A stretch of 64,000 nucleotides of DNA from Syntrophomonas sp. (GCA_016841425.1 JAENZE010000012.1:62001-126000); one strand, 5' to 3'; shown: positions 29,186 to 63,026, counted from the stretch's first letter. Numbers and translations are program-made. The notes: a model not told the origin generated them from the sequence alone.

Positions 29186-30679
29186 ATGTTTAAAAAGAAT
29201 TTACAGTCGGCTATGAAGGCTGGCGTACCAATTGTGTCAATAACCACTCCAGAGTGGGAAAGATGCTTAAATGATATTGGACACGTCACAAGAAACGAAG
29301 GTTCGGAAATCATGACCTGGGACCCAGTTTATGGCCTGTTAAATGGAGAAAAGGAATGTCTAGGCAACCCGGCAAACACACTCGCTATGCTGGATGTTGT
29401 AGGGGGGACAGAAGATACCATAATTGTATTCTTTAATTTTAACGGTAATTTAAAGACCCCAGCGGTAATACAGAAAATACGTGAAACTGCTAATATCGTT
29501 AAAACCCGGGGAAGCATGATGGTGCTGGTTTCTAGTTCTGGTGAGATCCCACGGGAATTAGAAAAAGAGATAATTGTAATTGATTATGCACTTCCGCAAA
29601 GAGAAGATATCAAGGCAATTGTTGAATCATTAGGCGGGTACAAGGGAGAATCATTGAACCGGCTGGTGGATGCAGCGGCCGGCTTAACGCAAACCGAAGC
29701 CGAAAATATTATCTCATTGGCATTGGTTAAAAACGATCTAGCCATAACCGATCAAACCATCGAAGAAGTCAAACGGCAGAAAGCCCAGGCACTTAAAAAA
29801 TCAGGAGTGCTTGAGTTATACGAGCCCGAGAACTTACCAAGCGTTGGTGGTCTGGACACATTAAAACTCTGGTTATGGGAACGCGGAAAAGCTTTTTTAC
29901 CAGAAGCCAGAGAGTTTGGATTACCGTTTCCTAAAGGAATACTGGTATTCGGCATACCTGGAACTGGTAAATCCTTAATCGCCAAGACCATCGCGAAACA
30001 ATGGTCAATGCAATTGTTGGTGATGCAAAACGTCTTGGATAAATATGTTGGTGAGAGCGAAAAACGCATGAAAGAAGCTTTAAAGCAAGCAGAAGCCATG
30101 GCCCCCTGCGTACTTTTTATCGATGAAATTGAAAAATTCTTCGCAGGAGTGGGCGGCAGCGGAGATTCAGGCGTTTCATCTCGAATTTTCGGCCAGTTTT
30201 TGACATGGATGCAAGAATGCCAGAAACCGGTTTTCGTAGTAGCCACCGCTAATAACATAGCGGCTCTCCCACCAGAATTACTGCGTAAGGGGCGTTTTGA
30301 TGAATCATTCTTTGTGGATTTGCCGGGACAATCCGACCGGGAGGAAATATTTAAAATCCATTTAACCCGCAAGAACCGAAATCCCGAAGAATTTGATCTC
30401 AATAAGCTGGCAGTCGCTACAGCAGGGTATACCGGTTCCGAACTCGAACAGGTTGTCATTGCTGGTCTATACCGGGCATTTGCTAAAAAACAGGATATAA
30501 ACACTGATCTATTGATTGATGTAGCCCAGGAGACCCCGCCACTGTCTGTAACTATGGATGAGACTATAAGTGCCATGCGGCAGTGGGGAAAAGAACGGGC
30601 AAGACCAGCTTCATCAGTCAATGAAGAACCTGAAAAGAAAAATAATGCCTTTATAACGGCCAGAAAAATAAGAGGGTAA
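29186..30679 (+). CDS. Ycf46-like AAA+ ATPase
   Basis: 497 residues. An N-terminal degenerate ATPase-like region (about 1-190) precedes a full AAA+ module: Walker A GIPGTGKS (about 254-261), the pore-type stretch VLDKYVGESEKRMKEAL, Walker B VLFIDEIEKFF, sensor 1 VVATANN and arginine fingers LRKGRFDESF. This domain order matches Ycf46-type ATPases of cyanobacteria and plastids. In those genomes Ycf46 often travels with DUF1257/Ycf35; here a DUF1257-like gene occurs at 52167 with the same leader RNA. Probably a remodelling ATPase. Confidence 0.85.
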   Translation: MFKKNLQSAMKAGVPIVSITTPEWERCLNDIGHVTRNEGSEIMTWDPVYGLLNGEKECLGNPANTLAMLDVVGGTEDTIIVFFNFNGNLKTPAVIQKIRETANIVKTRGSMMVLVSSSGEIPRELEKEIIVIDYALPQREDIKAIVESLGGYKGESLNRLVDAAAGLTQTEAENIISLALVKNDLAITDQTIEEVKRQKAQALKKSGVLELYEPENLPSVGGLDTLKLWLWERGKAFLPEAREFGLPFPKGILVFGIPGTGKSLIAKTIAKQWSMQLLVMQNVLDKYVGESEKRMKEALKQAEAMAPCVLFIDEIEKFFAGVGGSGDSGVSSRIFGQFLTWMQECQKPVFVVATANNIAALPPELLRKGRFDESFFVDLPGQSDREEIFKIHLTRKNRNPEEFDLNKLAVATAGYTGSELEQVVIAGLYRAFAKKQDINTDLLIDVAQETPPLSVTMDETISAMRQWGKERARPASSVNEEPEKKNNAFITARKIRG

Positions 30680-39563: not shown

Positions 39564-40883
39564 ATGGTTTATGTAAAGTCAGCGGAAGGCAAGCCTTTAA
39601 TGCCAACCGAAAGACACGGCAAGGTACGTCGGATGCTGAAGGAAGGCAGAGCAAAAGTAGTTAAGGCTAAACCCTTTACCATTCAACTAACCTATGAAAC
39701 AACACATTACACCCAGGCAGTGGCACTGGGTGTAGATGCGGGTTATTCGCATGTAGGATTTTCCGCAGTAACCGAAAAGGAAGAGATGTTAGCCGGGGAA
39801 ATACATCTGCTGAAAGGACAAGTAGAACGTAACCGTGACAGATCAAGCTACCGCAGACAAAGGAGGAGTAGACTGCGTTACCGGGTACCGAGATTTGACA
39901 ATCGGAAAAAGCCTGAAGGCTGGCTTGCTCCAAGTCTGCAGAATAAGCTGGATACACATATCCGGTTAATAGAAAAGATTGAATCTATTCTGCCAGTAAG
40001 CCGGGTAATAGTAGAAGTAGCCAGTTTTGATATTCAGGCTATTAAGAATCCCGGGATAGAAGGCAAAGAGTACCAACAGGGTGAACAGGCAGGTTACTGG
40101 AATCTGCGGGAATACATACTACACCGTGATGGGCACCGTTGCCAAAACCCTGGCTGCAAAAACAGGTCAAAGGAACAGGTTCTGCAATTACACCATATAG
40201 GGTATTGGAAAGGTGATCGTACTGACCGGCCCGGGAATTTAATCACGCTCTGCGACAAGTGCCATAAGCCAGAAAAGCACAAAGAAGGCAAATTACTATG
40301 GGGTTGGCAACCCAAAATCAAACCATTTAAAGCTGAGACATTTATGACGGTTGTGCGATGGAAGCTGGTTAATGCATTGGGATGTGAACATACCTACGGT
40401 TATATCACTAAAACCAGAAGGATTGAGTTAGAATTGGAAAAATCACATAGCAACGATGCTTTTTGTATTGCAGAAGGAACTAACCAGAAAAGGACAGAAC
40501 CAATTAAAATTGATCAGGTACGTCGAAATAATCGGAGCTTGCAGAAATTTTACGATGCCAGGTACATTGATCAGCGTACCGGAGAGAAAACCAGCGCCCA
40601 AGAATTAAATTGTGGCCGACGTGCCCGTAACAAAAACCTTAATACCGAAAACCTGCGTAAGTATCGTGGTGAGAAATTATCGCCAGGACGGGTAAGTATT
40701 CGCAGGAAGAGGTACCCATATCAGCCAGGCGATACCATATTGTATCAAGGAAAGGAATGTACTGTTAAAGGTGTCCAGAACCTGGGAGCATATATTAAGC
40801 TTACTGAATTAAGTAAACCTGTAAAAACATCAAAAATCCAGATCCTACGTTATGGGAAGGGACTGCGTGTTTATGCAAGTTAA
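39564..40883 (+). CDS. iscB: IscB RNA-guided nuclease
   Basis: 439 residues. N-terminal PLMP domain (GKPLMPTERHGKVRRMLKEG); RuvC-I Asp58 in ALGVDAGYSHVG; arginine-rich bridge helix (SSYRRQRRSRLRYRVPRFDN); RuvC-II Glu151 in VIVEVASFD; an HNH domain with zinc cysteines 193, 198, 230 and 233 and the His pair 210-211; RuvC-III His295 and Asp298 in SHSNDAF. A C-terminal basic domain follows. All catalytic residues are present, so an active omega-RNA-guided nuclease, the ancestor type of Cas9, is expected. GAAAGG precedes the ATG. Confidence 0.93.
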   Translation: MVYVKSAEGKPLMPTERHGKVRRMLKEGRAKVVKAKPFTIQLTYETTHYTQAVALGVDAGYSHVGFSAVTEKEEMLAGEIHLLKGQVERNRDRSSYRRQRRSRLRYRVPRFDNRKKPEGWLAPSLQNKLDTHIRLIEKIESILPVSRVIVEVASFDIQAIKNPGIEGKEYQQGEQAGYWNLREYILHRDGHRCQNPGCKNRSKEQVLQLHHIGYWKGDRTDRPGNLITLCDKCHKPEKHKEGKLLWGWQPKIKPFKAETFMTVVRWKLVNALGCEHTYGYITKTRRIELELEKSHSNDAFCIAEGTNQKRTEPIKIDQVRRNNRSLQKFYDARYIDQRTGEKTSAQELNCGRRARNKNLNTENLRKYRGEKLSPGRVSIRRKRYPYQPGDTILYQGKECTVKGVQNLGAYIKLTELSKPVKTSKIQILRYGKGLRVYAS

Positions 40884-42535: not shown

Positions 42536-44449
42536 ATGAGTAAAAACGCAGTTTTGAGAGAGCAGTTGTCCCTGTTTGATATGGCGTATGAACAGGGGAA
42601 TCCTTTGATTTCCGATACGGAGTACGAAAAAAAGTACAACGAACTCAAGAAATTTGAGGAAAAACATGGAGTCCCAGCAGATTCACCGACCCAAGTGATT
42701 CCGTTCAGCAGGGTAAAAGGTTTAGAAGTAGTAAAACACCCAAAACCCATGCTATCACTGAATAAGGTAAATGACTTTGTAGACCTCAGGAAGTGGTTTG
42801 TACCGGGTCAACAAATCTCAATCCAGCCGAAACTAGACGGATTAACAGTCGTACTCAAATACGAAAATGGAGAACTGGCAGACGCAGTTTTAAGAGGTGA
42901 TGGATACGAAGGAGAAAGGATTTTGCATATCGTTAGAACGATACAAAGCCTTCCTCAACAAATATCCTACCAAGAAAAACTGGAAGCCAGAGGGGAAATT
43001 TTCATCCCATTTAAAGTATTTGAGGAACTTAACAACGGTGAGTATGCCAATCCCCGGTCAATGGCAGCTGGTGCAGTAAGATTACTTGATGCCAATATAG
43101 CGGCCAAAAGAAAACTTGATATTAAAATCTTTGACTTGGTTTCATCAAACGAGGAATTTATAACCGATTTTGAACAGTTAATGTTTTTATTTAATATCGG
43201 TTTGCCGGTAGTAGATACCAAAGTCAAAGAAAACCTGGAAAAAATCATAAGCTATTGCAGCCACTATGAGCGGGAAACCCGTAAGACCCTGCCATATCCC
43301 ATAGATGGGTTGGTATTAAAAATCAATGATCTGGCAATACGAGAAAAAATGGGCGAAACCAGTAAAACCCCTAAGTGGGCGATAGCGTTTAAATTCGAGA
43401 GTGAAGAAGAATTTACCACTCTGGGATGTGTCCAATGGCAGGTTGGGAAAACCGGGCAAGTTACTCCGGTGGCAATATTTGACCCGATTAAAATTGATGG
43501 GGTGATTATAACCAAAGCCACTCTGCACAACTTTGGTTTTATCCAGGAGCAAAATCTCAAACTAGGCAGCCGCATAGTGGTAGCGCGCGCCAATGATGTT
43601 ATACCGAAGGTAGTCAAAGCAGTAAGTGAAGGAATTGCCGAAATAACCCTACCCAAGAACTGTCCAATATGCGGAGCAGCTGTAAAACTTAACGGGGCTA
43701 ACGCCTATTGTACCGGCACCGAATGTCCTGGCCAGCTAAAGGAAAAACTGATCCACTTCTGTTCCCGTGATGCTATGGATATAAAGGGGATGGGCGAAGA
43801 AACCATAAAAACCCTTTTTAACCTGCATTACATAAAGACTCCGGCAGACCTCTACACCCTGCACCAAATAGCTGACAGTATAAAATCTCTGTATGCCTAT
43901 GGTGATAAAAAAGTGCGGGCTATGCTGGATGGGATAGAAGAAAGCAAAAATCAGCCGTTTCAGAAAGTGTTATATGCGATCAATGTTCCTTATCTGGGTA
44001 GAACCAATGCAAAGGCCCTGGTCAAAGAATTTAGAAACATCGATTCTTTGATGGCAGCTTCAGCTGAACGGCTCAGAGAGGTTGAAGGGATAGGCAATAT
44101 TACGGCCGAAACAATAGCGGAGTTTTTTAAAGACGAAAAACTGATAAACGAGTTAAAAGCTCATGGTCTGTGTTTCGTCAGCGAAGAACCGCAAGAATCG
44201 TCCGAGACAGCCCTGAAAGATATGGTTTTTGTAATTTCCGGAACCCTATCTAAGCCAAGACAATTCTTTGAGGATGTCATAGTCGCAAATGGGGGTAAGG
44301 TAACCGGAACCGTAAGCAAAAAGACCAATTATTTAATTTTAGGTCCGGATAAAAGCGGTACGGCCAAACACAAACAGGCTGAGAAGCTAGGTATACCCAT
44401 TATTAACGAGGAAACATTCTGGCAGCTGGTAGGTGGTAGAGTTGAATAA
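42536..44449 (+). CDS. ligA: NAD-dependent DNA ligase LigA
   Basis: 637 residues, near full length (typical 660-680). Adenylation-site Lys99 in QPKLDGLT, OB domain (WQVGKTGQVTPVAIFDPIKI), zinc finger with Cys 376, 379, 392 and 397, helix-hairpin-helix region, and a C-terminal BRCT domain (about 560-637; VFVISGTLSKPRQFFEDVIV). It seals nicks using NAD. Having a complete bacterial-type ligase is unusual for an integrated element. It is coupled to the exonuclease gene by overlap. Confidence 0.95.
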   Translation: MSKNAVLREQLSLFDMAYEQGNPLISDTEYEKKYNELKKFEEKHGVPADSPTQVIPFSRVKGLEVVKHPKPMLSLNKVNDFVDLRKWFVPGQQISIQPKLDGLTVVLKYENGELADAVLRGDGYEGERILHIVRTIQSLPQQISYQEKLEARGEIFIPFKVFEELNNGEYANPRSMAAGAVRLLDANIAAKRKLDIKIFDLVSSNEEFITDFEQLMFLFNIGLPVVDTKVKENLEKIISYCSHYERETRKTLPYPIDGLVLKINDLAIREKMGETSKTPKWAIAFKFESEEEFTTLGCVQWQVGKTGQVTPVAIFDPIKIDGVIITKATLHNFGFIQEQNLKLGSRIVVARANDVIPKVVKAVSEGIAEITLPKNCPICGAAVKLNGANAYCTGTECPGQLKEKLIHFCSRDAMDIKGMGEETIKTLFNLHYIKTPADLYTLHQIADSIKSLYAYGDKKVRAMLDGIEESKNQPFQKVLYAINVPYLGRTNAKALVKEFRNIDSLMAASAERLREVEGIGNITAETIAEFFKDEKLINELKAHGLCFVSEEPQESSETALKDMVFVISGTLSKPRQFFEDVIVANGGKVTGTVSKKTNYLILGPDKSGTAKHKQAEKLGIPIINEETFWQLVGGRVE

Positions 44450-45461
44450 ACTACTTATCATCGATGGTTCCAGTATCTTGACCACCTGTTTCTTCGCTAC
44501 AGTACCAAGGGAATATTACTATGGGAAAACGCCTGAAGAAAAGCAGGCAGCGTTATCCAGGGTAATGAAAACCAGTAACGGTATCTGCGTTAACGGTGTA
44601 TATACGGCCATGAAAAGCCTGACTAAGCTACTGAATAGCCAAAAGCCGAGTCATTTGGCAGTAGCATGGGACATAACCCGGGATACATTCCGTAGGAGGA
44701 TATATCCCGAGTATAAAGGCAACCGAGCCGAAACTGTTCCTGAGTTAAAATCACAATTCATATTGATGCAAGAACTGCTGGAAGAAGCTAATATTCAGCA
44801 ATTCATGGATGCCAATTTAGAAGCAGACGATCTTATAGGTTCACTAGCAAAGCAATTTGAACAGCAGCTACCAACCTATATCTATACCAAAGACCAAGAT
44901 TGCCTGCAACTGGTGAGTGATTACACTCGACTCTGGCTGAACACCGGCAAAGCTGATGAGCTGAAAAAGGAATATAACGTCTCTGGGATCCCCGACAATT
45001 GTTTTGAGTTTACACCAATGTATGTGAAAGAAGTCTATGGTCTGGACCCGATCCAGATCATAGATAAGAAAGCATTAGAAGGCGATACCAGCGACAATAT
45101 CCCAGGAGTCAAAGGAGTAGGTGAGAAAGCCTGTATCCCATTATTGCAGGAATTTGGCACCATAGAAGTGATTTATGAAGCCTTAGAGGATGATGAAAAA
45201 TCTTTTAAAGAGACCTGTAAAGCTTTGGGTGTACGATCTCCTGTAAAAGCCCTAAAAGAAGGTAAGGAAAGCGCATTTATGAGCAAGAACCTTGCTACTA
45301 TTAGATGTAAAAACCTTGAAGTCACCCTGGATGAGCTAACACTTGTGGTGAACGAAATAGCTTTAAACAGGAAATACAAAGAATTTGAGTTTAAAAGCCT
45401 TGTTAAGCCAGCTCAAGAAGCACCAAAACTTATGGTTGCAAAACAAGGGAGTCTTTTTTAA
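44442..45461 (+). CDS. Pol I-type 5'-3' exonuclease / flap endonuclease
   Basis: 339 residues from TTG 44442 (AGGTGG upstream; a GTG at 44433 is the alternative), overlapping ligA. Motifs: LLIIDGSSIL, YPEYKGNRAETVPELKSQF, LEADDLIGSLAK, YTKDQDCLQLV and the helix-hairpin-helix GDTSDNIPGVKGVGEK. It removes RNA primers and flaps ahead of LigA. No polymerase domain is attached. The C-terminal QGSLF may be a clamp-binding peptide (Q-x-x-L-F type). Confidence 0.92.
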   Translation: MNKLLIIDGSSILTTCFFATVPREYYYGKTPEEKQAALSRVMKTSNGICVNGVYTAMKSLTKLLNSQKPSHLAVAWDITRDTFRRRIYPEYKGNRAETVPELKSQFILMQELLEEANIQQFMDANLEADDLIGSLAKQFEQQLPTYIYTKDQDCLQLVSDYTRLWLNTGKADELKKEYNVSGIPDNCFEFTPMYVKEVYGLDPIQIIDKKALEGDTSDNIPGVKGVGEKACIPLLQEFGTIEVIYEALEDDEKSFKETCKALGVRSPVKALKEGKESAFMSKNLATIRCKNLEVTLDELTLVVNEIALNRKYKEFEFKSLVKPAQEAPKLMVAKQGSLF

Positions 45462-50438: not shown

Positions 50439-51578
50439 GTGAAGAAAGGAGGCGATAGGCTGAAAACTTACAAATATCGCTTATATCCAACTAAAGCCCA
50501 AAAGCAAAACCTCGATGAAAACCTAAACCTTTGTCGAGTGCTATATAACACTGCATTAAGTCAACGCAAAACAGCTTATCGCCAACAACGAATTAGCTTA
50601 AACTATTACGACCAAGCTAGCGAACTTAAAGAAGTAAAAGAATGTCTACCTGAATATAAATACATTCATTCTCAAGTCTTGCAGGATGTGTTAAAACGAG
50701 TAGACAAGGCATTTCAAAACTTCTTTCGTAGAGTTAAATTAGGTGAAAAACCCGGCTATCCACGGTTTAAAGGTTACGGCTGGTACGATAGTTTTACTTA
50801 TCCGCAATCGGGATTTTCCCTCTCTGATAACAGTAAAGGCAACCAGAGATTAAAACTCTCGAAAATCGGCAGTATCAAAATCAAGCTGCATCGTGCTATC
50901 AAAGGTAAGATTAAAACCTGTACGATAAAACGAGAGTTTAATAACTGGTACGTCTGTTTGTCCTGCGAAGCTGAACATGAGCTTTTACCTAAGACTCATA
51001 AATCAGTTGGTGTTGACGTTGGTATTGAGAAATACGCTGCTTTATCTGATGGAATTTTGATTGAGAATCCTAAGTTCTTGCGTAAATCAGAATCTAAACT
51101 CAAACATGAGCAGCGTTGCTTATCCCGCAAGAAGAAAGGTTCATACTCCCGTATTAAGCAACGACAGAGACTCGCAAAACTCCATCACAAAATCAAGAAC
51201 CAGCGTAATGACTTCTTGCATAAGGAGTCTCGCAAATTAGTCAAAAACTACGATGTAATCGTGCTTGAAGATCTGCGGGTAAAGAATATGGTCAAAAACC
51301 ATCATCTCGCAAAATCCATCTCTGATGCTGCGTGGGCTAAATTCACCGAATATCTTTCTTACAAGGCTGAGAGTGCCGGTAAGAAGGTAGTGTTCGTGAA
51401 TCCACGCAATACATCGCAAATTTGTTCAAAGTGCGGTGAAACGGTCAAGAAGTCACTTTCGATTAGGGTTCACAAATGCCCTTCCTGTGGACTTATTCTT
51501 GATCGTGACGTAAATGCCGCAATAAATATTTTGAGGTTGGGAACCAGCCCCGGTGGAGCCACGGCATTAGCCGGGTGA
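50439..51578 (+). CDS. tnpB: TnpB RNA-guided nuclease
   Basis: 379 residues from GTG 50439. A CTG at 50460, 7 bases after AAAGGAGG and starting directly at the usual LKTYKYRLYPTKAQ, may be the real start. RuvC residues: Asp in VGVDVGIEKYAAL, Glu in VIVLEDLRVKNM, Asp in ILDRDVNAAINIL; zinc finger CSKCGETV...CPSCG. Length is near the usual 370-400. All catalytic residues are present, so an active guide-RNA-dependent nuclease, ancestor type of Cas12, is possible. Confidence 0.93.
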   Translation: MKKGGDRLKTYKYRLYPTKAQKQNLDENLNLCRVLYNTALSQRKTAYRQQRISLNYYDQASELKEVKECLPEYKYIHSQVLQDVLKRVDKAFQNFFRRVKLGEKPGYPRFKGYGWYDSFTYPQSGFSLSDNSKGNQRLKLSKIGSIKIKLHRAIKGKIKTCTIKREFNNWYVCLSCEAEHELLPKTHKSVGVDVGIEKYAALSDGILIENPKFLRKSESKLKHEQRCLSRKKKGSYSRIKQRQRLAKLHHKIKNQRNDFLHKESRKLVKNYDVIVLEDLRVKNMVKNHHLAKSISDAAWAKFTEYLSYKAESAGKKVVFVNPRNTSQICSKCGETVKKSLSIRVHKCPSCGLILDRDVNAAINILRLGTSPGGATALAG

Positions 51579-51617
51579 TGAAGCCAGAAGCTCGCCAATT
51601 TATTGGTGAGTAGTTCA
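51530..51617 (+). ncRNA. Candidate TnpB guide RNA (reRNA) at the right end
   Basis: In TnpB elements the guide scaffold overlaps the 3' end of tnpB and the right end, with the guide reading past the end. Here the GC-rich GGTTGGGAACCAGCC and CGGTGGAGCCACGGC hairpins and the end hairpin fit that place. Inferred by position. Confidence 0.45.
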
Positions 51618-51845
51618 CTGAAAGATAATATTGTAACCGTTAATTCAAACGATATATTCAACTCATACAAAGCGGAAGTTGCATCTTTGATCAATAAGAA
51701 GGTTCTGACCATAGAGGATACAGTAAGACTAAAAACCCTCAATGAAATACTGGCAGAACAGGACATCGATCTATCGCAAATGTCTCGTAGCAGCCGGAAG
51801 AAACTAATGCAACAAGCAGATAGCCAATTAGTCCTATTTGGCTAG
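51618..51845 (+). pseudogene. 3' part of the small gene split by the TnpB element
   Basis: 75 codons (LKDNIVTVNSNDIFNSYKAE, VASLINKKVLTIEDTVRLKT, ending ADSQLVLFG). It could still be translated from a TTG or GTG at 51603-51606 inside the transposon end. The ending QLVLFG is a possible clamp-binding peptide (Q-x-x-L-F). Family unknown. Confidence 0.5.
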
Positions 51846-52166: not shown

Positions 52167-52835
52167 ATGAGTCACTGGTTTTCAGTTAAAACCAAATTTA
52201 ATAGCATTGATGCTATTAAAAAAGCAGCAACGCAGTTAGGTTATATGGTAACCCATAATCGTATGTGCAGAGGATACCAAGGACAGGAAACGCCTTGCGA
52301 TCTTGTTATGAAACTCCCAGGGGAATATGACCTTGGGTTTAAAAAACAAGAGGATGGCACATATGAGATAGTTGCCGATTTCTGGGCTAATCACATTAGT
52401 GATTATTTAGCAAATGCTAATGCCCTAAAAGAAGCAGAAAAACTATTCAATGAAAAAATCCAGAACCAGGAATGGAGTTACAGTGAAGCTGAAGCTTTTA
52501 TGAATGAAGCTAAAATTAGTAAATTCATGCAAGCGTATAACTGTGCAGCTCTGGAAGAATTGGTAAGGATGCAAGGACTTCAGTATATCGCAAACACCCT
52601 GCCAGATGGTTCCATAGTCTATGAAACTTATGGTAATACCAATCCTGAAGAAAAGGTGATCACAACAGTTAATGCAGATGGTGATTTAAAAGTCGAAGCT
52701 GAAGGATTTACCGGAACATCGTGTACCGATGCGACCGCATTTCTGCAAAATCTCGGAATAGTAGAAGAATCCGAAAATAAACCGGAGTTTTACGCCGAGG
52801 AAAATCTTATCATGGAGGTTAATAATGGAAAATAA
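52167..52835 (+). CDS. DUF1257 (Ycf35-like) protein
   Basis: 222 residues. MSHWFSVKTKFNSIDAIKKA, then ATQLGYMV, is the usual DUF1257/Ycf35 N terminus; a second helical region (AAATLG-like KISKFMQAYNCAALEELVRM) and a beta-rich tail follow. In cyanobacteria and some Firmicutes elements DUF1257 proteins occur with Ycf46-type AAA ATPases. Here that ATPase is at 29186 with the same 88-nt leader. Function unknown; likely a cofactor or substrate adaptor of the ATPase. Confidence 0.75.
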   Translation: MSHWFSVKTKFNSIDAIKKAATQLGYMVTHNRMCRGYQGQETPCDLVMKLPGEYDLGFKKQEDGTYEIVADFWANHISDYLANANALKEAEKLFNEKIQNQEWSYSEAEAFMNEAKISKFMQAYNCAALEELVRMQGLQYIANTLPDGSIVYETYGNTNPEEKVITTVNADGDLKVEAEGFTGTSCTDATAFLQNLGIVEESENKPEFYAEENLIMEVNNGK

Positions 52836-53847: not shown

Positions 53848-53863
53848 GAAAGGAGGAAAATCC

Positions 53864-54988
53864 ATGAGTATATGGGATAACGTAACAGGCGTAGAAAACG
53901 CCGAAAGCAATTATATCGGTAAACGGTTCGCTTATGCCAGAAAGGAAAGCAAAAAGGGCATTAGGTATGATTTTCTAATACCGATTTTGAACGAAGCTGG
54001 ATTAGATAATTATGCACCCAACCCGCCTACTCCGGCAGATGCTTTCCGTAGAGCCTGCCAGGACATTCCGAAAAGGTATGTCCATGACAAGGAAAGCGGC
54101 CGGAAATATAAAATCAATATGATTTTAATCGACGAGTCTGCCGACCCGATAATTAGAAATCTCCAGTTAACCGAAATTGATAAACAGAATCGTACCTCTA
54201 CAGACGGTAAACTGGTAGCACAAATTAAATTCTTCAGGGATAGCGAAGCTATAGTAGCTTATCACGGGTATCAGGCGGGATATGAGTTCGATACCTGCCC
54301 TGACTTTGTTTGTGACCGGATACAGGCAGCTATCGAACGGTTTCGGAAAGAACGGGATCTTGTTTCCGAAATGCAGATTCACAATATAATACAGAAAATC
54401 TTGCAGGATGCAGGCAACCCAGTCAACCGCATATTAAGCACATGGAACATTCCAGTAACCAGAGAGGAATTATTAGATAGATTACTCAGGGTAGCCGAAA
54501 GATTAAACGAGTATGAAGAAGGAATCTTTGTAACAGACACCCTGCCAGTGATCCGTACTCCCGAGGTTACAAGCAAAGTCAAAGCGGATGCGGTTATCTA
54601 TGCAGTTGACAAGCTGAATAGTCTTTATAAGAAAGCCAAAGACGATATTTCTGTTTCTACCGATGTAGAGAAAACCACTCTACGAGTTAAAGGACAGCTT
54701 AAACAAGAGGCAGAAAAAGTAATGTCTTTAGTTGAGGAATATGAGTCAATTTTAGGTGAGGCTATGGATGAAGTCAGGCAAGCTCGGGAGATCACCGAGA
54801 GTAAACTGAAAGAGTTTGCGGATTCACCCGAACAGCAGATGCGGCACAGAGAAACAAAACGGAGATTAAGGTCCGGGGGTAATAAGCCAGCAGCAGTCGA
54901 AGCAATTTCTGAAGAAGTCGAAAAACCCGTTCGCCGGATAAAAGGGATGCAGGCTCAAGCACAAGTGCAGGCGTCTTTAGCAATGTAA
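53864..54988 (+). CDS. Large uncharacterised element protein (DUF6744-like)
   Basis: 374 residues from ATG 53864 (AAAGGAGG upstream). N-terminal alpha/beta part (GKRFAYARKESKKGIRYDFL, RACQDIPKRYVHDKESGRKY, LVAQIKFFRDSEAIVAYHGY) and a helical C-terminal half with coiled coil (RVKGQLKQEAEKVMSLVEEY) and a basic tail. It resembles conserved proteins of large phage-like elements, perhaps DUF6744, but I cannot confirm. No membrane segment. Confidence 0.55.
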   Translation: MSIWDNVTGVENAESNYIGKRFAYARKESKKGIRYDFLIPILNEAGLDNYAPNPPTPADAFRRACQDIPKRYVHDKESGRKYKINMILIDESADPIIRNLQLTEIDKQNRTSTDGKLVAQIKFFRDSEAIVAYHGYQAGYEFDTCPDFVCDRIQAAIERFRKERDLVSEMQIHNIIQKILQDAGNPVNRILSTWNIPVTREELLDRLLRVAERLNEYEEGIFVTDTLPVIRTPEVTSKVKADAVIYAVDKLNSLYKKAKDDISVSTDVEKTTLRVKGQLKQEAEKVMSLVEEYESILGEAMDEVRQAREITESKLKEFADSPEQQMRHRETKRRLRSGGNKPAAVEAISEEVEKPVRRIKGMQAQAQVQASLAM

Positions 54989-55051
54989 AAAATGCCCTCC
55001 ATTTTGGGGGGCAAAATCCCTTTTTACAGGGGAAGGAGTGAGTACAAAGTA

Positions 55052-55375
55052 ATGAAGATTTTAGATATTGACTATCTTAACAGTGCAATATCGGCCAAAG
55101 CCGAACACAAGAGCAAAATAGATGATGTTATTAAGGATGAGGCTCAAAGAATTTTGCGCCTGATGGATTTTCTAACGGAAGAATATATAACCGAGGAAAT
55201 ACTTGCCGTACCCTTAGAAGAATGGGAACTTGAAGAAGAATTGGTTGCATTAGAAGAGGGAACCACGCCAATAGCACGTTACATTTTGGCGAATGAGGAA
55301 AAACGCAACTATTACAACCATTACTACAACCAATTTCGTTCAGCCCCGTTGCCCAAGGCACAAGACTTTGTGTAG
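55052..55375 (+). CDS. Acidic helical protein of unknown function
   Basis: 107 residues from ATG 55052, after GGGGAAGGAG and a short CCC/GGG hairpin. Very acidic middle (LAVPLEEWELEEELVALEEG) and a Tyr/Asn-rich run (RNYYNHYYNQF). It starts the row of genes leading into the ubiquitin-like cassette. Confidence 0.5.
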   Translation: MKILDIDYLNSAISAKAEHKSKIDDVIKDEAQRILRLMDFLTEEYITEEILAVPLEEWELEEELVALEEGTTPIARYILANEEKRNYYNHYYNQFRSAPLPKAQDFV

Positions 55376-55386
55376 GGGGTGGCAGG

Positions 55387-55905
55387 ATGTATCCAGATTA
55401 TTATGGTTTTAATGAGGAATTAATCGACCAATACCTGGGCACTCTTTATAATCTAAAAACTCTGTTATATATCAAAAAAGAACTGGGTGATTATGCAGAT
55501 ATTACTGACAGGTATTTTGGCTATAGTCCTTACTGTGGTGATAGCGAAGCAGTTTTTTTCCGGAGCGCAATTGCGATTATCCTTGGCTTAAATGAAGAAC
55601 AAGAACTAAACATCGCAGAAGAATATTATATTAAGGAAGATTTTTTAAAAGAATACCCAGATATTCAGGAAGATATCAAAGAGGAAATAGATGAAATAGC
55701 CGAGCTGAAAATCCCGGCAGTATATGCGGATATATGTGAACAAATTGAAATTCCTAAAGACTCAGGTGAGTTTAGATATAGAAGGATTAATGAAAAATTT
55801 AGTCACATATATTTCGCTGCAGATGAATGGCCTTTTCGTGAAGATCTATTCAATTTCTTCATAAAAGTCAGGAAAATTGCTGAAGGTTTGGAGGTGGCGG
55901 CATGA
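55387..55905 (+). CDS. Acidic protein upstream of the E2-like gene
   Basis: 172 residues, rich in E, D, I and Y (EYPDIQEDIKEEIDEIAELK). ATG 55387 has GGGGGTGG upstream; the end overlaps the E2-like gene by 4 bp (ATGA). No JAB, ParB or other PRTRC-type motif seen. Its coupling makes it a candidate partner of the cassette. Confidence 0.5.
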   Translation: MYPDYYGFNEELIDQYLGTLYNLKTLLYIKKELGDYADITDRYFGYSPYCGDSEAVFFRSAIAIILGLNEEQELNIAEEYYIKEDFLKEYPDIQEDIKEEIDEIAELKIPAVYADICEQIEIPKDSGEFRYRRINEKFSHIYFAADEWPFREDLFNFFIKVRKIAEGLEVAA

Positions 55906-56540
55906 TACATTTATTTCTTCAAGAAGACGGTGTTTTTATCGAATTAGAGAATGATGGGAAAAAAGAATTTAGAGAGGTCAATATTAAAGAGTTGATTGAT
56001 ATATTCAACAGCGCAGTCAGGGATGTAGTAGAAGATGTCATAGAAACCCCACTATTACCGCCCGGCACAATTAAATTCGACATAGACCCTTCTAATCCGG
56101 CTAATTATAAACTATATATGTTCAAAGAGCCAACAATTGGCCCGATAACATTTGAAAGCCGGCAATATACAGTAGGATACCCTGCAAGCGTCCATCTATT
56201 TAAAGTTCGGAATAGGGTAGTTACTCAGGTGAAAATATGGGCCATTCAGGGTAAAAACCTAACGCCCGATGCCCCTATATATCATTATCCATACTTCAAT
56301 GCCTACAGTGACGGCAGGATATGCATCGGAACAAATCGTATTCCAGTAGAAGAACCCTGGCAGTTATTTAAAATGCCCGACATTTTAAAAGTTATGCCTT
56401 CTAATTTAGGGTTAAGTACACATAACAACGCTGGATTACAAGGTGATTCTTTATTAAAGGCGGTAGAGGATAAACCGTTTCCGGATACCTGGTTAAAACC
56501 ATACCACAAAAAACTTAAAGACATTCTTAAAGAGGGGTAA
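55902..56540 (+). CDS. E2-like protein (PRTRC protein B / Prok-E2 family D type)
   Basis: 212 residues. The C-terminal half shows PIYHYPYFNAYSDGRICIGT with Cys141, then PWQLFKMPDILKVMPSNLGL and STHNN. Pattern and cysteine place match PRTRC system protein B, which is an E2-fold (ubiquitin-conjugating-like) family. The N-terminal half is a beta-rich domain. With the Ubl-like and E1-like genes downstream it forms a minimal conjugation-type cassette. Whether Cys141 acts is untested. Confidence 0.7.
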   Translation: MIHLFLQEDGVFIELENDGKKEFREVNIKELIDIFNSAVRDVVEDVIETPLLPPGTIKFDIDPSNPANYKLYMFKEPTIGPITFESRQYTVGYPASVHLFKVRNRVVTQVKIWAIQGKNLTPDAPIYHYPYFNAYSDGRICIGTNRIPVEEPWQLFKMPDILKVMPSNLGLSTHNNAGLQGDSLLKAVEDKPFPDTWLKPYHKKLKDILKEG

Positions 56541-56555
56541 AAACCCCTCTTTTTT
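56531..56555 (+). terminator. Rho-independent terminator
   Basis: AGAGGGG/CCCCTCT with TAAAAA loop and T-run; its first arm overlaps the E2-like stop codon region. Confidence 0.85.
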
Positions 56556-56576
56556 ATTGGGTAAATAAAACTATAT

Positions 56577-56601
56577 CTCGCGATATACGCGAGGAAAGGA
56601 G
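56577..56601 (+). promoter_or_regulatory. Hairpin-RBS element 9 (ahead of the Ubl-like gene)
   Basis: Fully paired stem CTCGCG/CGCGAG, loop ATATA, then GAAAGGAG and ATG 56608. Relative to CTTGCG/CGCAAG, the second base pair is changed on both sides. Confidence 0.75.
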
Positions 56602-56607
56602 TGTCTT

Positions 56608-56964
56608 ATGAGTAATAATTTATTTGGCGAATTTGGTGAGCAGCCAACAGAAAATACCTGCGGAGCCAAAGCGACCAAAACATCTAAAAAGACAGGCAGC
56701 GCGCCTGTTAAAAAAGGTTCACTGGAAGAGAAATTACCTGCTAGAAATATGCAGGTTAAAATGTACTCGGATTTTTACCAGTACGAAGCCCCAGACGATC
56801 TCCAAGACCCAACTTTGGATGACGTTAGGAAATGGTTATTGAATAACCATGGCTTTACCGAGCTGGCTGATTCTAAAAGAGTTGGCATGTTTGTAGTAAA
56901 TTCAGAAGTTGAAGGTGAGGAAAAGTATATCTATTGTGGCGTGAAGTTCGAAAAGATGGGATAA
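56608..56964 (+). CDS. Ubiquitin-like beta-grasp protein (PRTRC protein C type)
   Basis: 118 residues. A Lys/Ser/Thr-rich disordered head (about 1-45) precedes a compact domain: MQVKMYSDFYQYEAPDDLQD, PTLDDVRKWLLNNHGFTELA, GMFVVNSEV, YIYCGVKFEKMG. The order and the VRKWL helix resemble PRTRC protein C, a ubiquitin-like family. The chain ends in glycine, as conjugated Ubls do, though only a single Gly. Role as a protein tag is inference. Confidence 0.6.
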   Translation: MSNNLFGEFGEQPTENTCGAKATKTSKKTGSAPVKKGSLEEKLPARNMQVKMYSDFYQYEAPDDLQDPTLDDVRKWLLNNHGFTELADSKRVGMFVVNSEVEGEEKYIYCGVKFEKMG

Positions 56965-56976
56965 AGGAGGAACAAA

Positions 56977-57279
56977 ATGTTAAACGCTATTGAAGTCGAT
57001 GGTCCAAAGACCATAGTAAAGGCAGAAGAATTTGAAAGAATGTATCTGGAGAATAAACGGTTGAAAGCTCAGTTGAAACAAGAACGGAAAGTTCGGGAAA
57101 GGACAGAGCTTTCATTGGAACAAATCAAAAACCAGTACGCAAAATTGGAAAAGGAAACCCGGCAGCACAAGGCGATTTTTGAATTAGCAGAAGATGCTTT
57201 CATCAACAAACAAATAAACCCCGAAGATCAGGGTTATATGGGTGCCATCGCCAGAACGCTTACTAGGGCTTCTCAATAA
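56977..57279 (+). CDS. Coiled-coil protein inside the Ubl cassette
   Basis: 100 residues, almost all one coiled coil (EFERMYLENKRLKAQLKQER, LEQIKNQYAKLEKETRQHKA), followed by a short polar tail. AAAGGAGG precedes the ATG, 12 bases after the Ubl-like gene. Possibly a scaffold. Confidence 0.55.
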   Translation: MLNAIEVDGPKTIVKAEEFERMYLENKRLKAQLKQERKVRERTELSLEQIKNQYAKLEKETRQHKAIFELAEDAFINKQINPEDQGYMGAIARTLTRASQ

Positions 57280-57324
57280 AGTTTATAACATCCTATTTAT
57301 TAACGGCAGTGCCGTGGGAAAAAT

Positions 57325-57341
57325 CCCCGGCGTTGCCGGGG
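57325..57341 (+). promoter_or_regulatory. GC-rich hairpin just before a ribosome site
   Basis: CCCCGGC/GCCGGGG with GTT loop, then TAGAAAGGA and ATG 57357. Confidence 0.6.
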
Positions 57342-57356
57342 TAGAAAGGAATAAAG

Positions 57357-57908
57357 ATGATATTATACCATGTTTCATTTAATGCAATTGAAAATGGCAT
57401 ACTTTATCCCAGGATACCGGAAAGCCGGGCTCCCCATGAGGATAAATCAATTCCAAGAATCTGTTTTGCAGACAGTATTGAAAACTGCCTAACAGCTATA
57501 CCCGGGGGAGGCCGGGCCTTAAAAAACCTTTTATTTAGGTCAAAAGTAATGCCCATATCGGCAGTGCTCCATGTGTACCACATAAACACACTAACTGTGC
57601 CAAAAGAAAACCTAGTACCAAACTCAGAGGTAGTAAGGTATGTACCAGATGCAAAGCACACGGGAGAAGTCTGGGTAATAAACCAAAACACAGTATGCAC
57701 TCACCAGATCATTGAAGTGACCAACGCACACGTTAAGCACGGAACAGATCTGTACGGTAAAGACGTTTACGAGGTACGCTATTTGGAATGGCGCCCACTA
57801 GGAGAATTGCCGCTTAACGCCCCTGAAATCATAATTGAAAAAGCCAAAGCCAGACTGCAAATAGGTGCTGGTTTTTCAATTAGAAGCGTACTAGCAGAAT
57901 GGGATTAG
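57357..57908 (+). CDS. Unknown protein between Ubl-like and E1-like genes
   Basis: 183 residues. It begins MILYHVSFNAIENGILYPRI, then PESRAPHEDKSIPRICFADS and IENCLTAIPGGG. This opening (LYHVS, PRxP, RxCF, SIExCL) occurs in a family of uncharacterised phage and plasmid proteins; a compact ADP-ribosyl- or RES-like fold is imaginable but unproven. Its place in the cassette makes it a candidate enzyme or target. Confidence 0.5.
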   Translation: MILYHVSFNAIENGILYPRIPESRAPHEDKSIPRICFADSIENCLTAIPGGGRALKNLLFRSKVMPISAVLHVYHINTLTVPKENLVPNSEVVRYVPDAKHTGEVWVINQNTVCTHQIIEVTNAHVKHGTDLYGKDVYEVRYLEWRPLGELPLNAPEIIIEKAKARLQIGAGFSIRSVLAEWD

Positions 57909-57918
57909 GGGTGTTTCA

Positions 57919-58737
57919 ATGATTTTAGATGATATAAACATGATATCAATTGTTCAAGTAGGCTGTGGCGGCACCGGGGGCTATCTGGTCCCTAAAGTCG
58001 CCCGGCTATTAATGACCTTGGCAAGCTTCAAAAAAGAAGTAAGGGTAATTTACACAATTAATGACTTTGATTTTGTAGAAGAAAAAAATCTTTATCGCCA
58101 GAACTTTATCCAGGGTGATCTAGGAAAAAACAAAGCTGATGTGTGTGCTTTACGATATGGCAGTCATTTTGAAGTGAATATCATAAGCTGCTCCGAGAAA
58201 AAAGAAAACTCCGATCAGCTTAAAAACTTATTTTCACTACGTGCAAATGACGGTATGTGTTGGAGCCCGAAAGTCCTGTGTATTTTAATCGGGGCGGTAG
58301 ACAATAACAAGGCTCGGAAAGTAATGCACGACTTATTTCATAATTGGAATGGCTTCGGATATGGGCACTCACTGGTATACATTGATGGTGGGAATGGAAA
58401 ATTCACTGGGCAAGTAGTTACTGGCTACAGGACCCCTAAAGAAATCATATTGCCACCTGTAGGGGATGTGTTCCCAGAAGCCTTAATAGAAGATGAACAA
58501 GAACAACCACAAAACTGTGCGCTCAACGCCTTACAAAACCCACAAAACATCGGGGCTAATGATATGGCCGCAACACTGATTTTTAGCATAGTCAATGTGT
58601 TGTTGACTGACAACGAAATCAACTCCCATATCATTAATTTTGATGGCAAGACCCAGGAGATCAGTACCAGAGGAAATAAGGAGATTGCGGAGGGTGGTGA
58701 GTTAAATGCCATTGATAGTGGGTTGTGCTTGCGGTAA
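57919..58737 (+). CDS. E1-like ThiF-family protein (PRTRC ThiF type)
   Basis: 272 residues. Rossmann nucleotide-binding motif VQVGCGGTGGYLVPK (about 12-26), then NDFDFVEEKNLYRQNFIQGD with the Asp, Arg and Asn used by E1/ThiF enzymes to adenylate a Ubl C terminus, and Lys in LGKNKADV. It is shorter than full E1 and shows no clear catalytic-cysteine domain, like PRTRC ThiF. It ends the cassette. GGGGTG precedes the ATG. Confidence 0.8.
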   Translation: MILDDINMISIVQVGCGGTGGYLVPKVARLLMTLASFKKEVRVIYTINDFDFVEEKNLYRQNFIQGDLGKNKADVCALRYGSHFEVNIISCSEKKENSDQLKNLFSLRANDGMCWSPKVLCILIGAVDNNKARKVMHDLFHNWNGFGYGHSLVYIDGGNGKFTGQVVTGYRTPKEIILPPVGDVFPEALIEDEQEQPQNCALNALQNPQNIGANDMAATLIFSIVNVLLTDNEINSHIINFDGKTQEISTRGNKEIAEGGELNAIDSGLCLR

Positions 58738-58846
58738 AGCAACTATTCAGAAAGAATGGGATTCGGAATTAGGTCAATACTATTGCTTTATCGAATGCAA
58801 ACATTGTAATTATTATTGGGAAGGACCCATGGATTACGGAATATAA
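58706..58846 (+). CDS. Small zinc-ribbon protein
   Basis: 46 residues: MPLIVGCACGKATIQKEWDS, then ELGQYYCFIECKHCNYYWEG and a short tail. Two C-x(1-2)-C pairs form a zinc ribbon. It overlaps the ThiF gene by 32 bp with GGAGGGTGG upstream, so it is translated with it. Confidence 0.55.
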   Translation: MPLIVGCACGKATIQKEWDSELGQYYCFIECKHCNYYWEGPMDYGI

Positions 58847-61134: not shown

Positions 61135-62253
61135 ATGAAAATATTGATTGAGCAAAAGAAGTTGGCAGAAATGCTGAATATGGCAGCCAGAGCCGCATCA
61201 AAGGGCACAAATGTAGTACCAGCTTTAGCCGGAGTACATTTAGAAGCTTTAAACGGCACCTTAACTCTGACTGCAAGCAACTTTGATATGGCAGTCAAAA
61301 CCTCAACCAACGAGGTGGAAATCGTGCAAGAGGGCGAAGCGTTATCCAACGCTCAATATCTAGCTGATTTCATCAGTAAGCTGGATACCAGTCCAATATC
61401 CATTGAGTTGACCAAAACCGCTAAATTAGCCATCAAATATGGCAAAAGCAAAGGTAACATCAACACCTTGAACAAAGATGGCTGGGTATCGCCCAAGATT
61501 GATGGAGAAGGCTTTATTGAAAACTTCTGCGTTAAATCCAAGGATCTGAAAAAAGCTTTGGAAGCGGTAATGTTCGCTGCAGCCAATGATCATTTCCGTA
61601 AAGTGTTTACAGGAGTCCTGTTTGACATTAAAGACGGAGTGGTTAATATGGTGGCTTCGGATACCCACAAGTTGGCATGGTATACAATCAGTGACGTTAA
61701 TAACCCTAAAGAAGGGCAGTTTATAGCCCCCACCAAACTACTCAAGGAAGTAATAAGGGCGCTAAAGGATACTGAGGACTTGGTAACCGTAATGTCTAAT
61801 GATAGTACACTGGTTTTCAAAATGGAGGAAACCGTCATATCTATACGGCTTCTTGATGGGCAATATCCTGACTACCGGGCAATAATACCGGCTACAACCC
61901 ATGAGATGAGTATGGCTACTGAAAATTTAAGATCATCACTGGAAAGAATACGGACTCTTCCCCAGGAAGATAAACTAAAACTTCCAGCAGCTAAATTCTG
62001 TATTAACGGCAAAGGAGAAATAAAAGTAGAATACACCTCCGATATTGCTGGTGCAATTACCGAAGTCATAGCTTTGGAGGATAGTCCATCCCTGGAAGAA
62101 GAATTAACTGTTATTCTCAACGCCAGTTACCTACAGGAAATAGCCAGGAATATTAATACCAAGATCCACATTGGCTTTACGGGTCCAGCAACACCAATAC
62201 TTATAAATGGCGAAGAAGCCGTTGCAAAGTATGTTCTGGTTCCCATGAGGTAA
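61135..62253 (+). CDS. dnaN: DNA polymerase III beta sliding clamp
   Basis: 372 residues, the standard DnaN length with three clamp folds. Marks include LTASNFDMAVKT, SDTHKLAWYTI, VIRALKDTEDLVTVMSNDST, LLDGQYPDYRAIIP and the C-terminal ILINGEEAVAKYVLVPMR. It would form the ring that holds element polymerase, ligase and exonuclease to DNA. A full bacterial clamp is rare in integrated elements and suggests a near-complete own replisome. Confidence 0.95.
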   Translation: MKILIEQKKLAEMLNMAARAASKGTNVVPALAGVHLEALNGTLTLTASNFDMAVKTSTNEVEIVQEGEALSNAQYLADFISKLDTSPISIELTKTAKLAIKYGKSKGNINTLNKDGWVSPKIDGEGFIENFCVKSKDLKKALEAVMFAAANDHFRKVFTGVLFDIKDGVVNMVASDTHKLAWYTISDVNNPKEGQFIAPTKLLKEVIRALKDTEDLVTVMSNDSTLVFKMEETVISIRLLDGQYPDYRAIIPATTHEMSMATENLRSSLERIRTLPQEDKLKLPAAKFCINGKGEIKVEYTSDIAGAITEVIALEDSPSLEEELTVILNASYLQEIARNINTKIHIGFTGPATPILINGEEAVAKYVLVPMR

Positions 62254-62357: not shown

Positions 62358-63026
62358 ATGAATACTGTTAATGGTGATGTTTTTGCCGGTAAAATAACTA
62401 AAGCTTTTCCGGTAGATAAGGGATTCAAAGGGTTATTGCAGTTGGATGAGAATCAAGCCATCGGGGTGCAGGTATCCTACGATGGCAAACTCAAAGAAAA
62501 GCTGGCTGAATCGGTAGGGGAAAATGTAATACTGGTTGGCAGCTTGAGTTTCCCGGGTAAAGACCAGTCCATTCCTGTTTTAGAAGCAAGAGGAACACTG
62601 GGAAGCAGCCTGCTTGTAAAAAGAGGTCGTTTGAGTAAAGACCCGGAACTGAAATATTCTCCCCAGGGTAAAGCATATACCCAGTTTTCCATGGCCGTAA
62701 ACCGGGGATATGGGGATAATAAAACCTCATATTTTATAAACTGCACCCTTTTTGGAAACGACAGAGAGAAGAATGCCGCCACAGCACTGGCTGAAAACGC
62801 CCAGAAGGGGCAGGAAATAATCGTAAAAGGCCGGTTGACCACCAATAAGAGTGGCGATAAAACCTATTTCAATATGATCGTAGATGAATTTGAATTTATC
62901 TTCTCGGGCAGCGGTAAGAGTAACGGCAACAGCACAAAGGCTGAGGACGATCCCTATGCTGCATACCTGGACATCGGGACTATAGTCGATGATAGCGGCA
63001 TTGATGATGACGAAATACCATTCTAG
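62358..63026 (+). CDS. ssb: Single-stranded DNA-binding protein with extra N-terminal domain
   Basis: 222 residues. Residues about 80-185 are the SSB OB fold (LVKRGRLSKDPELKYSPQGK, QFSMAVNRG, YFINCTLFGNDREKNA, GQEIIVKGRL) and the chain ends in the acidic tip DDSGIDDDEIPF that recruits partners. Residues 1-78 form an additional beta-rich domain not found in ordinary SSBs. GAAAAGGAGG precedes the ATG. It likely serves the element's replisome. Confidence 0.88.
   Translation: MNTVNGDVFAGKITKAFPVDKGFKGLLQLDENQAIGVQVSYDGKLKEKLAESVGENVILVGSLSFPGKDQSIPVLEARGTLGSSLLVKRGRLSKDPELKYSPQGKAYTQFSMAVNRGYGDNKTSYFINCTLFGNDREKNAATALAENAQKGQEIIVKGRLTTNKSGDKTYFNMIVDEFEFIFSGSGKSNGNSTKAEDDPYAAYLDIGTIVDDSGIDDDEIPF

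Follow-up and report, generated by a model that had tools for sequence, protein, structure and literature searches.

A predicted ubiquitin-like conjugation cassette without a JAB protease on a Syntrophomonas mobile element, and its hypothetical link to the DNA sliding clamp

In this study, we analyzed a 64,000-nt stretch of DNA from Syntrophomonas sp. (GCA_016841425.1 JAENZE010000012.1:62001-126000), hereafter the window, whose positions serve as coordinates throughout. A mobile element in it encodes a compact cassette of an E2-like enzyme, a ubiquitin-like protein (Ubl) and an E1-like enzyme of the ThiF type. We conclude that this cassette is a JAB-less variant of a known system, with a new link to the DNA sliding clamp that is put forward as a testable hypothesis. 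Judging from its sequence features, the cassette likely carries out Ubl conjugation, and we consider it probable that it works in one direction with a pre-matured Ubl and acts at the replisome of the mobile replicon.

Results

Organization of the cassette

The genes in question belong to an apparent operon (53858-58737) on a single strand (+) with short intergenic gaps:

53858-54988, + strand: DUF6744 protein (PF20529, E 7e-17), which opens the apparent operon; the next open reading frame (ORF) lies 3 nt on
54992-55375, + strand: small helical protein, its position kept in the operons of G032 (L017 3898-4221) and L024 (1218-1541)
55387-55905, + strand: helical partner protein, a candidate for the 6d alpha-helical protein (see below); syntenic with L017 3414-3905, 4-nt overlap with the E2 start
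55902-56540, + strand: E2-like conjugating enzyme of family D (PF14460 Prok-E2_D, 44.4 bits with a cut-off of 25, E 2e-11), with Cys141 and with Asn133 in YPxxN
56608-56964, + strand: Ubl, with a disordered tail (residues ~1-45), a beta-grasp core (46-118) and Gly118 at the stop codon
56977-57279, + strand: coiled-coil protein, an insertion peculiar to the window locus
57357-57908, + strand: protein with a predicted ADP-ribosyltransferase (ART) fold, also an insertion peculiar to the window locus, 10 nt before ThiF
57919-58737, + strand: E1-like/ThiF adenylating enzyme of 272 aa (PF00899, E 5.8e-11), with a GCGGTGG loop, Arg60, Lys72, Asp128 and Cys200

A first-pass annotation of this DNA had described a row of five genes running from E2 to ThiF. 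All five ORFs were found where it had placed them, with the ThiF gene ending at 58737 and not at 58846. Relatives of the cassette, gathered from plasmids, phages, genomes and IMG/VR, have the conserved order 54992, 55387, E2, Ubl and ThiF (genes without a name are given by their start positions), and the two upstream members of this operon had been missed. The nearest relatives are those of G032, which belongs to the same family (L012, L016 and L017), and L024, from a Clostridiales metagenome-assembled genome (MAG), with the order small protein, (helical protein), E2, Ubl and ThiF. A SEC-C protein lies between E2 and Ubl in G032, and the stop of the Ubl gene overlaps the ThiF start in L024. 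Because neither G032 nor L024 has a counterpart of 56977 or 57357 between Ubl and ThiF, these two genes are regarded as insertions in the window locus; E2, Ubl and ThiF are the members of the original row that are conserved. The 54992 protein and its counterparts in G032 and L024 have a common pattern spotted by eye, Y[IV]TE.[IV]L[AS]VP.E[ED]W, and a library scan of 54992 gave no match above chance. Similarity of 55387 to proteins of other clades was not significant (best E 0.013, L005); its position is right and is common to G032. It should be noted that the ThiF gene of G032 is split by a frameshift (L017 1121-1839), reflecting either a sequencing error or real decay. When viral contigs were scanned with single proteins (ThiF, Ubl and 57357), no relatives emerged, and alignment-based searches were needed.

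Ubl fold and conservation of active sites

The Ubl had no match to any library model, and no PDB relative of the E2 or the Ubl family could be found by sequence. A profile of 83 Ubls from outside its own clade ranked it first among the 272 ORFs of the window (E 1.9e-4; next ORF 0.61). In an AlphaFold2 model based on 18 related sequences, residues 46-118 form a beta-beta-alpha-beta-beta core (pLDDT ~90; block pLDDT 73-94) and the tail is disordered. Foldseek alone gave no significant PDB match for this model; a structural second look was dominated by ubiquitin-like folds, including SAMP1, ubiquitin and the bacterial Ubl 8tyx (Z 5.3-4.7). Both structure prediction and the independent profile agree with the earlier description of a beta-grasp protein ending in Gly. 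Poly-Ubl genes, in which tandem Ubl repeats end in GVKG or GTKG and the JAB is separate, were also observed in Bacillus phage KLEB27-3 (L006 2673-3422) and on IMG/VR contigs (L116-L119).

Catalytic residues were counted in an alignment of 124 relatives. Cys141 of the E2, the Cys of GRICIGT on which the first reading of this protein as E2-like had been based, was invariant (124/124), including all 16 JAB-less rows. Asn133 was kept in 119 relatives and was His in the other five, and His174 is present in the window protein in a column that is not conserved across the aligned set. For ThiF, G15, G17, D49, N57, Q61, K72, D128, R133 and G164 were invariant, R60 was found in 122 relatives and Cys200 in 123, the single exception being a gap in a JAB-less row; the E1 catalytic residues are present and invariant or nearly so, as the proposed ThiF/E1 identity implies. 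PF00899 was the sole Pfam domain found in this stand-alone protein, which has no rhodanese domain, and it also matched TIGR03736 (E 5.6e-29, under the curated cut-off).

Absence of JAB

In line with the first-pass annotation, no JAB could be detected in the window by a family profile or a JAMM regular expression. The same profile (E <= 1) found none in the window's genome (G000), in the genomes of G032, L024 and L031, or on the complete plasmids NZ_CP067354, NZ_CP014843 (pSCDB14 of B. licheniformis) and NC_017998; it recovered all three positive controls, together with JABs that lie apart from the operon in Cytobacillus and in three virus records. Matches to PF14464 and PRTRC_A in the window's genome were below cut-off only (PRTRC_A best E 0.2, 11.8 bits vs 101.8). 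Nearly all relatives carry a JAB, either fused behind the Ubl (52 loci) or separate, and its JAMM motif is intact. JAB-less loci amounted to 25 (copies included), and each has a small Gly-ending ORF beside the operon; four to five have a JAB elsewhere on the replicon, and those of temperate phages were assessed on a flank of 12-17 kb only. In a quick tree built from 124 ThiF rows, the window clustered with L017 and L024 (SH-aLRT 99) and JAB absence amounted to four changes, at least two of them forced by starred branches, in a tree that is unrooted, has several unsure long branches and yields counts that cannot separate gain from loss. Repeated loss is our reading, since the JAB-less loci are found amid loci that bear a JAB. 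Thus, the absence of JAB is real and recurrent, and with Gly encoded by its last sense codon, the Ubl would not need a processing protease.

Two candidates for a JAB replacement were rejected. RadC-like genes lie near the operon solely in G032 and L031, and none is present in the window. The position of 57357 had suggested a stand-in deconjugase; its predicted fold indicates an ART and not a protease. In its model (pLDDT 72), ART-fold chains occupied ranks 1-38 on the VIA-align list (Z 4.0-6.3, the best being 6.3 over 100 residues), and Foldseek against the PDB returned nothing under E 0.1, so that the ART assignment is suggestive and not proof. Relatives of 57357 occur in jumbo phages (Pseudomonas, Erwinia and Klebsiella) and Bacillota megaplasmids, with the conserved patterns YHxS, PRIC and VxDAxxTxExW.

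Comparison with known systems

As far as sequence comparison can assign it, the lineage belongs to the operon type that Iyer et al. designated 6d, which is related to PRTRC systems and falls under the PRTRC curated cut-offs. Like 6d operons (PMC1779556), it combines a small Ubl with a C-terminal Gly, a stand-alone rhodanese-free E1, an E2 with a conserved Cys and a helical partner (55387 as a candidate only), and it is sporadic and often found on mobile elements. Because operons of this type were stated always to include a JAB, fused or adjacent (Iyer et al., 2006; PMC1779556), the window cassette is a departure from that description. It also differs from 6d in that neither its locus nor its genome has a JAB, two extra genes are inserted and the downstream E2 His is not conserved in the set of relatives.

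Similarity to PRTRC systems (NCBIfam TIGR03734-TIGR03742) consists of sub-cut-off matches and a plasmid-type setting. The window E2 scored 38.2 bits with PRTRC_B (cut-off 131.45) and ThiF 101.2 bits with PRTRC_ThiF (cut-off 144.75); unlike in PRTRC, these scores lie under the curated cut-offs, and PRTRC_A and PRTRC_C had no match. For PRTRC_C (TIGR03738), 4 of 17 aligned relatives matched and the window Ubl did not. No PRTRC_parB match was obtained among the element proteins scanned, which covered part of its ORFs, in accordance with the first-pass remark that ParB was not seen. Its suggestion of a PRTRC relation holds in that the cassette is a reduced, JAB-less relative (type 6d), and fails in that the curated cut-offs place it outside PRTRC. 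Although these systems were described in 2006, no functional study of PRTRC or 6d systems was found in the openly licensed literature.

The cassette shares the logic of Ubl, E1 and E2 with the bacterial ubiquitination-like operons Bil and Bub. In Bil, the Ubl has two domains and is matured by a JAB, and the E1 is larger and two-lobed (PMC11354881), whereas the window has a single-domain, pre-matured Ubl, a minimal E1 and no JAB. Should the clamp hypothesis be right, there would also be a functional analogy, and nothing beyond analogy, to the modification of eukaryotic PCNA by ubiquitin and SUMO, in which Ubl conjugation is tied to a sliding clamp; the enzymes are only distantly related and the clamp is a hypothetical substrate in the window system.

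Association with the sliding clamp

Several replication genes of the element and the clamp arrangements of relatives are as follows:

61135-62253, + strand: element-encoded DNA sliding clamp (DnaN/beta; PF00712, PF02767 and PF02768 over cut-off), ~2.4 kb downstream on the same strand
62358-63026, + strand: element-encoded SSB (PF00436)
42536-44449, + strand: element-encoded NAD-dependent DNA ligase (PF01653 and others), with an N-terminal clamp-docking motif QLSLF
ThiF/clamp overlap of 4 nt in Oscillospiraceae: L028, L041, L042, L048, L060, L065, L081, L089, L091, L098, L120 and L008
Clamp gene immediately before Ubl in temperate phages: L157, L164, L172 and L180

In two separate lineages, a clamp gene overlaps the operon or lies immediately next to it. 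A clamp gene was found within ~1 kb of the operon in 19 relatives, and this adjacency amounts to seven changes on the ThiF tree. In the Oscillospiraceae loci, the start of DnaN overlaps the stop of ThiF by 4 nt (ATGA in most). Phage clamps matched PHROG 947, DNA polymerase processivity factor (L171, E 4.6e-18; L180, 1.6e-5; L157, 7e-4), and the L164 clamp had no match to it. Loci of relatives also contain a DUF6094 methyltransferase (53 loci) and a primase-like protein (23 loci), both of which are present in the window's element, which encodes a 5'-3' exonuclease as well.

The consensus of bacterial clamp-binding peptides is QL[SD]LF, and motifs of this kind (QLDLF, QFSLF, QLALF and QMDLF) could be observed in the Ubl tails of relatives. 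The pattern Q[LMFIV][SDANEGT]LF, a widened form of the consensus, was present in 10 of 70 non-redundant Ubl tails, with 0.07 expected from shuffles and a frequency of 12/2091 in the other genes of the same loci (Fisher p 3e-10). In the openly licensed literature, no paper was found that ties 6d or PRTRC systems to the clamp. Docking-like motifs also occur in other element proteins, namely a C-terminal QGSLF in the exonuclease (44433-45461) and QLVLF in a helicase remnant (51603-51845).

The mobile element

The cassette belongs to a mobile element that spans ~27.0-64.3 kb in window coordinates, with approximate boundaries. The left-flank chromosome matches congeners up to ~26.88 kb of the window; the right flank is located on another contig in congeners and occurs in duplicate in G000. 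At the element ends, no conspicuous direct repeat was seen. The region 49919-64354 (L023, 14.4 kb) is identical to a contig from a Thermincola ferriacetica bin, except at a few positions within the last 31 bases, and 40.58-64.35 kb of the window appears to be the same as this 23.8-kb contig, of which 14.4 kb were compared. This identity reflects either a second host and recent transfer or a MAG binning error.

Other genes of the element include the RNA-guided nucleases IscB and TnpB (39564-40883 and 50439-51578, respectively). The helicase remnant beside TnpB corresponds to a C terminus, and the protein has 677 aa in G032 (L017 6646-8679). A CDC48/PAN-like AAA ATPase (29186-30679; E 3e-42 with TIGR01243, under its cut-off) and a protein that fuses DUF1257 and DUF2997 (52167-52835) form a pair that resembles the Ycf46/Ycf35 partners.

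Discussion

We propose that the cassette derives from operon type 6d with loss of the JAB protease. ThiF would adenylate the Ubl at its C-terminal Gly and probably accept it as a thioester on Cys200; the Ubl would then be passed to Cys141 of the E2, which would attach it to lysines of targets, perhaps assisted by the small helical partners (54992 and 55387). Without reversal by an unrelated protease, such tagging would be one-way. As part of the replication module of the element, the cassette may find its targets at the replisome of that element, with the surroundings of the sliding clamp as the most plausible site. We infer conjugation because the residues for its chemistry are conserved, its one-way direction because JAB was lost, and its target because of gene neighbourhood and motifs; a benefit to the element is likewise presumed. 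Several points weigh against this proposal. The motif pattern was picked after examples had been seen, and its 10 carriers are confined to a Bacilli group and one Oscillospiraceae group, which are not fully independent. The window Ubl tail has only the LF core of a degenerate motif (SNNLF), and the window clamp gene lies 2.4 kb off, behind nrdD and with no ThiF overlap. Moreover, replication genes often cluster for other reasons, and an unrelated deconjugase is possibly in play. A wider version, in which 6d/PRTRC-like Ubl systems of plasmids and phages are the bacterial counterpart of PCNA ubiquitin/SUMO signalling, with the Ubl reaching the replicon's clamp via an N-terminal docking motif or an operon-coupled clamp and JAB-less versions tagging replisome proteins irreversibly, appears rather doubtful.

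The first-pass annotation had left the role between replication and defence, and had also offered a sulfur-carrier-like reading. The neighbourhood favours replication. Anti-phage or anti-plasmid defence, in which the cassette would exclude competitors of the element in the manner of Bil, has a precedent in that Bil is presented as an anti-phage Ubl-conjugation system in accounts that cite the experiments (PMC12660748, PMC13373217); the cassette is mobile, and PADLOC gave weak E1-E2 matches to ThiF. However, neither the E2 nor the Ubl was matched by PADLOC, the neighbourhood contains no recognised defence genes, and the relatives ride on phages and large plasmids within replication gene clusters, so that we consider a defence role unlikely and this part of the earlier suggestion without support.

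ThiF-type E1s commonly serve sulfur carriers, and the Ubl C terminus could as a thiocarboxylate provide sulfur to a cofactor, tRNA or DNA; in 10 of the 124 relatives, genes of the PAPS-reductase family are inside the locus, immediately downstream of ThiF in L009. This link is infrequent and scattered, the element proteins that were scanned include no recognised sulfur enzyme, and we know of no sulfur carrier that employs a dedicated E2 with an invariant Cys. With the cysteines of both E2 and E1 conserved, such a function seems quite improbable. The breaking up of the operon by two extra genes, the split ThiF of G032 and the reduction of the element's helicase might instead point to a non-working remnant on its way out after JAB loss. 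However, the window and the JAB-less relatives retain intact catalytic residues, and JAB-less versions with open frames persist in several lineages, which makes decay very improbable.

One-way conjugation at the replisome is the explanation that we prefer. The cassette indicates that a Ubl encoded in pre-matured form makes JAB dispensable, which breaks the stated rule for these operons, and it offers a minimal three-gene cascade for reconstitution. If confirmed, the clamp linkage would provide a target and a function for the whole family, strikingly paralleling the modification of clamps in eukaryotes.

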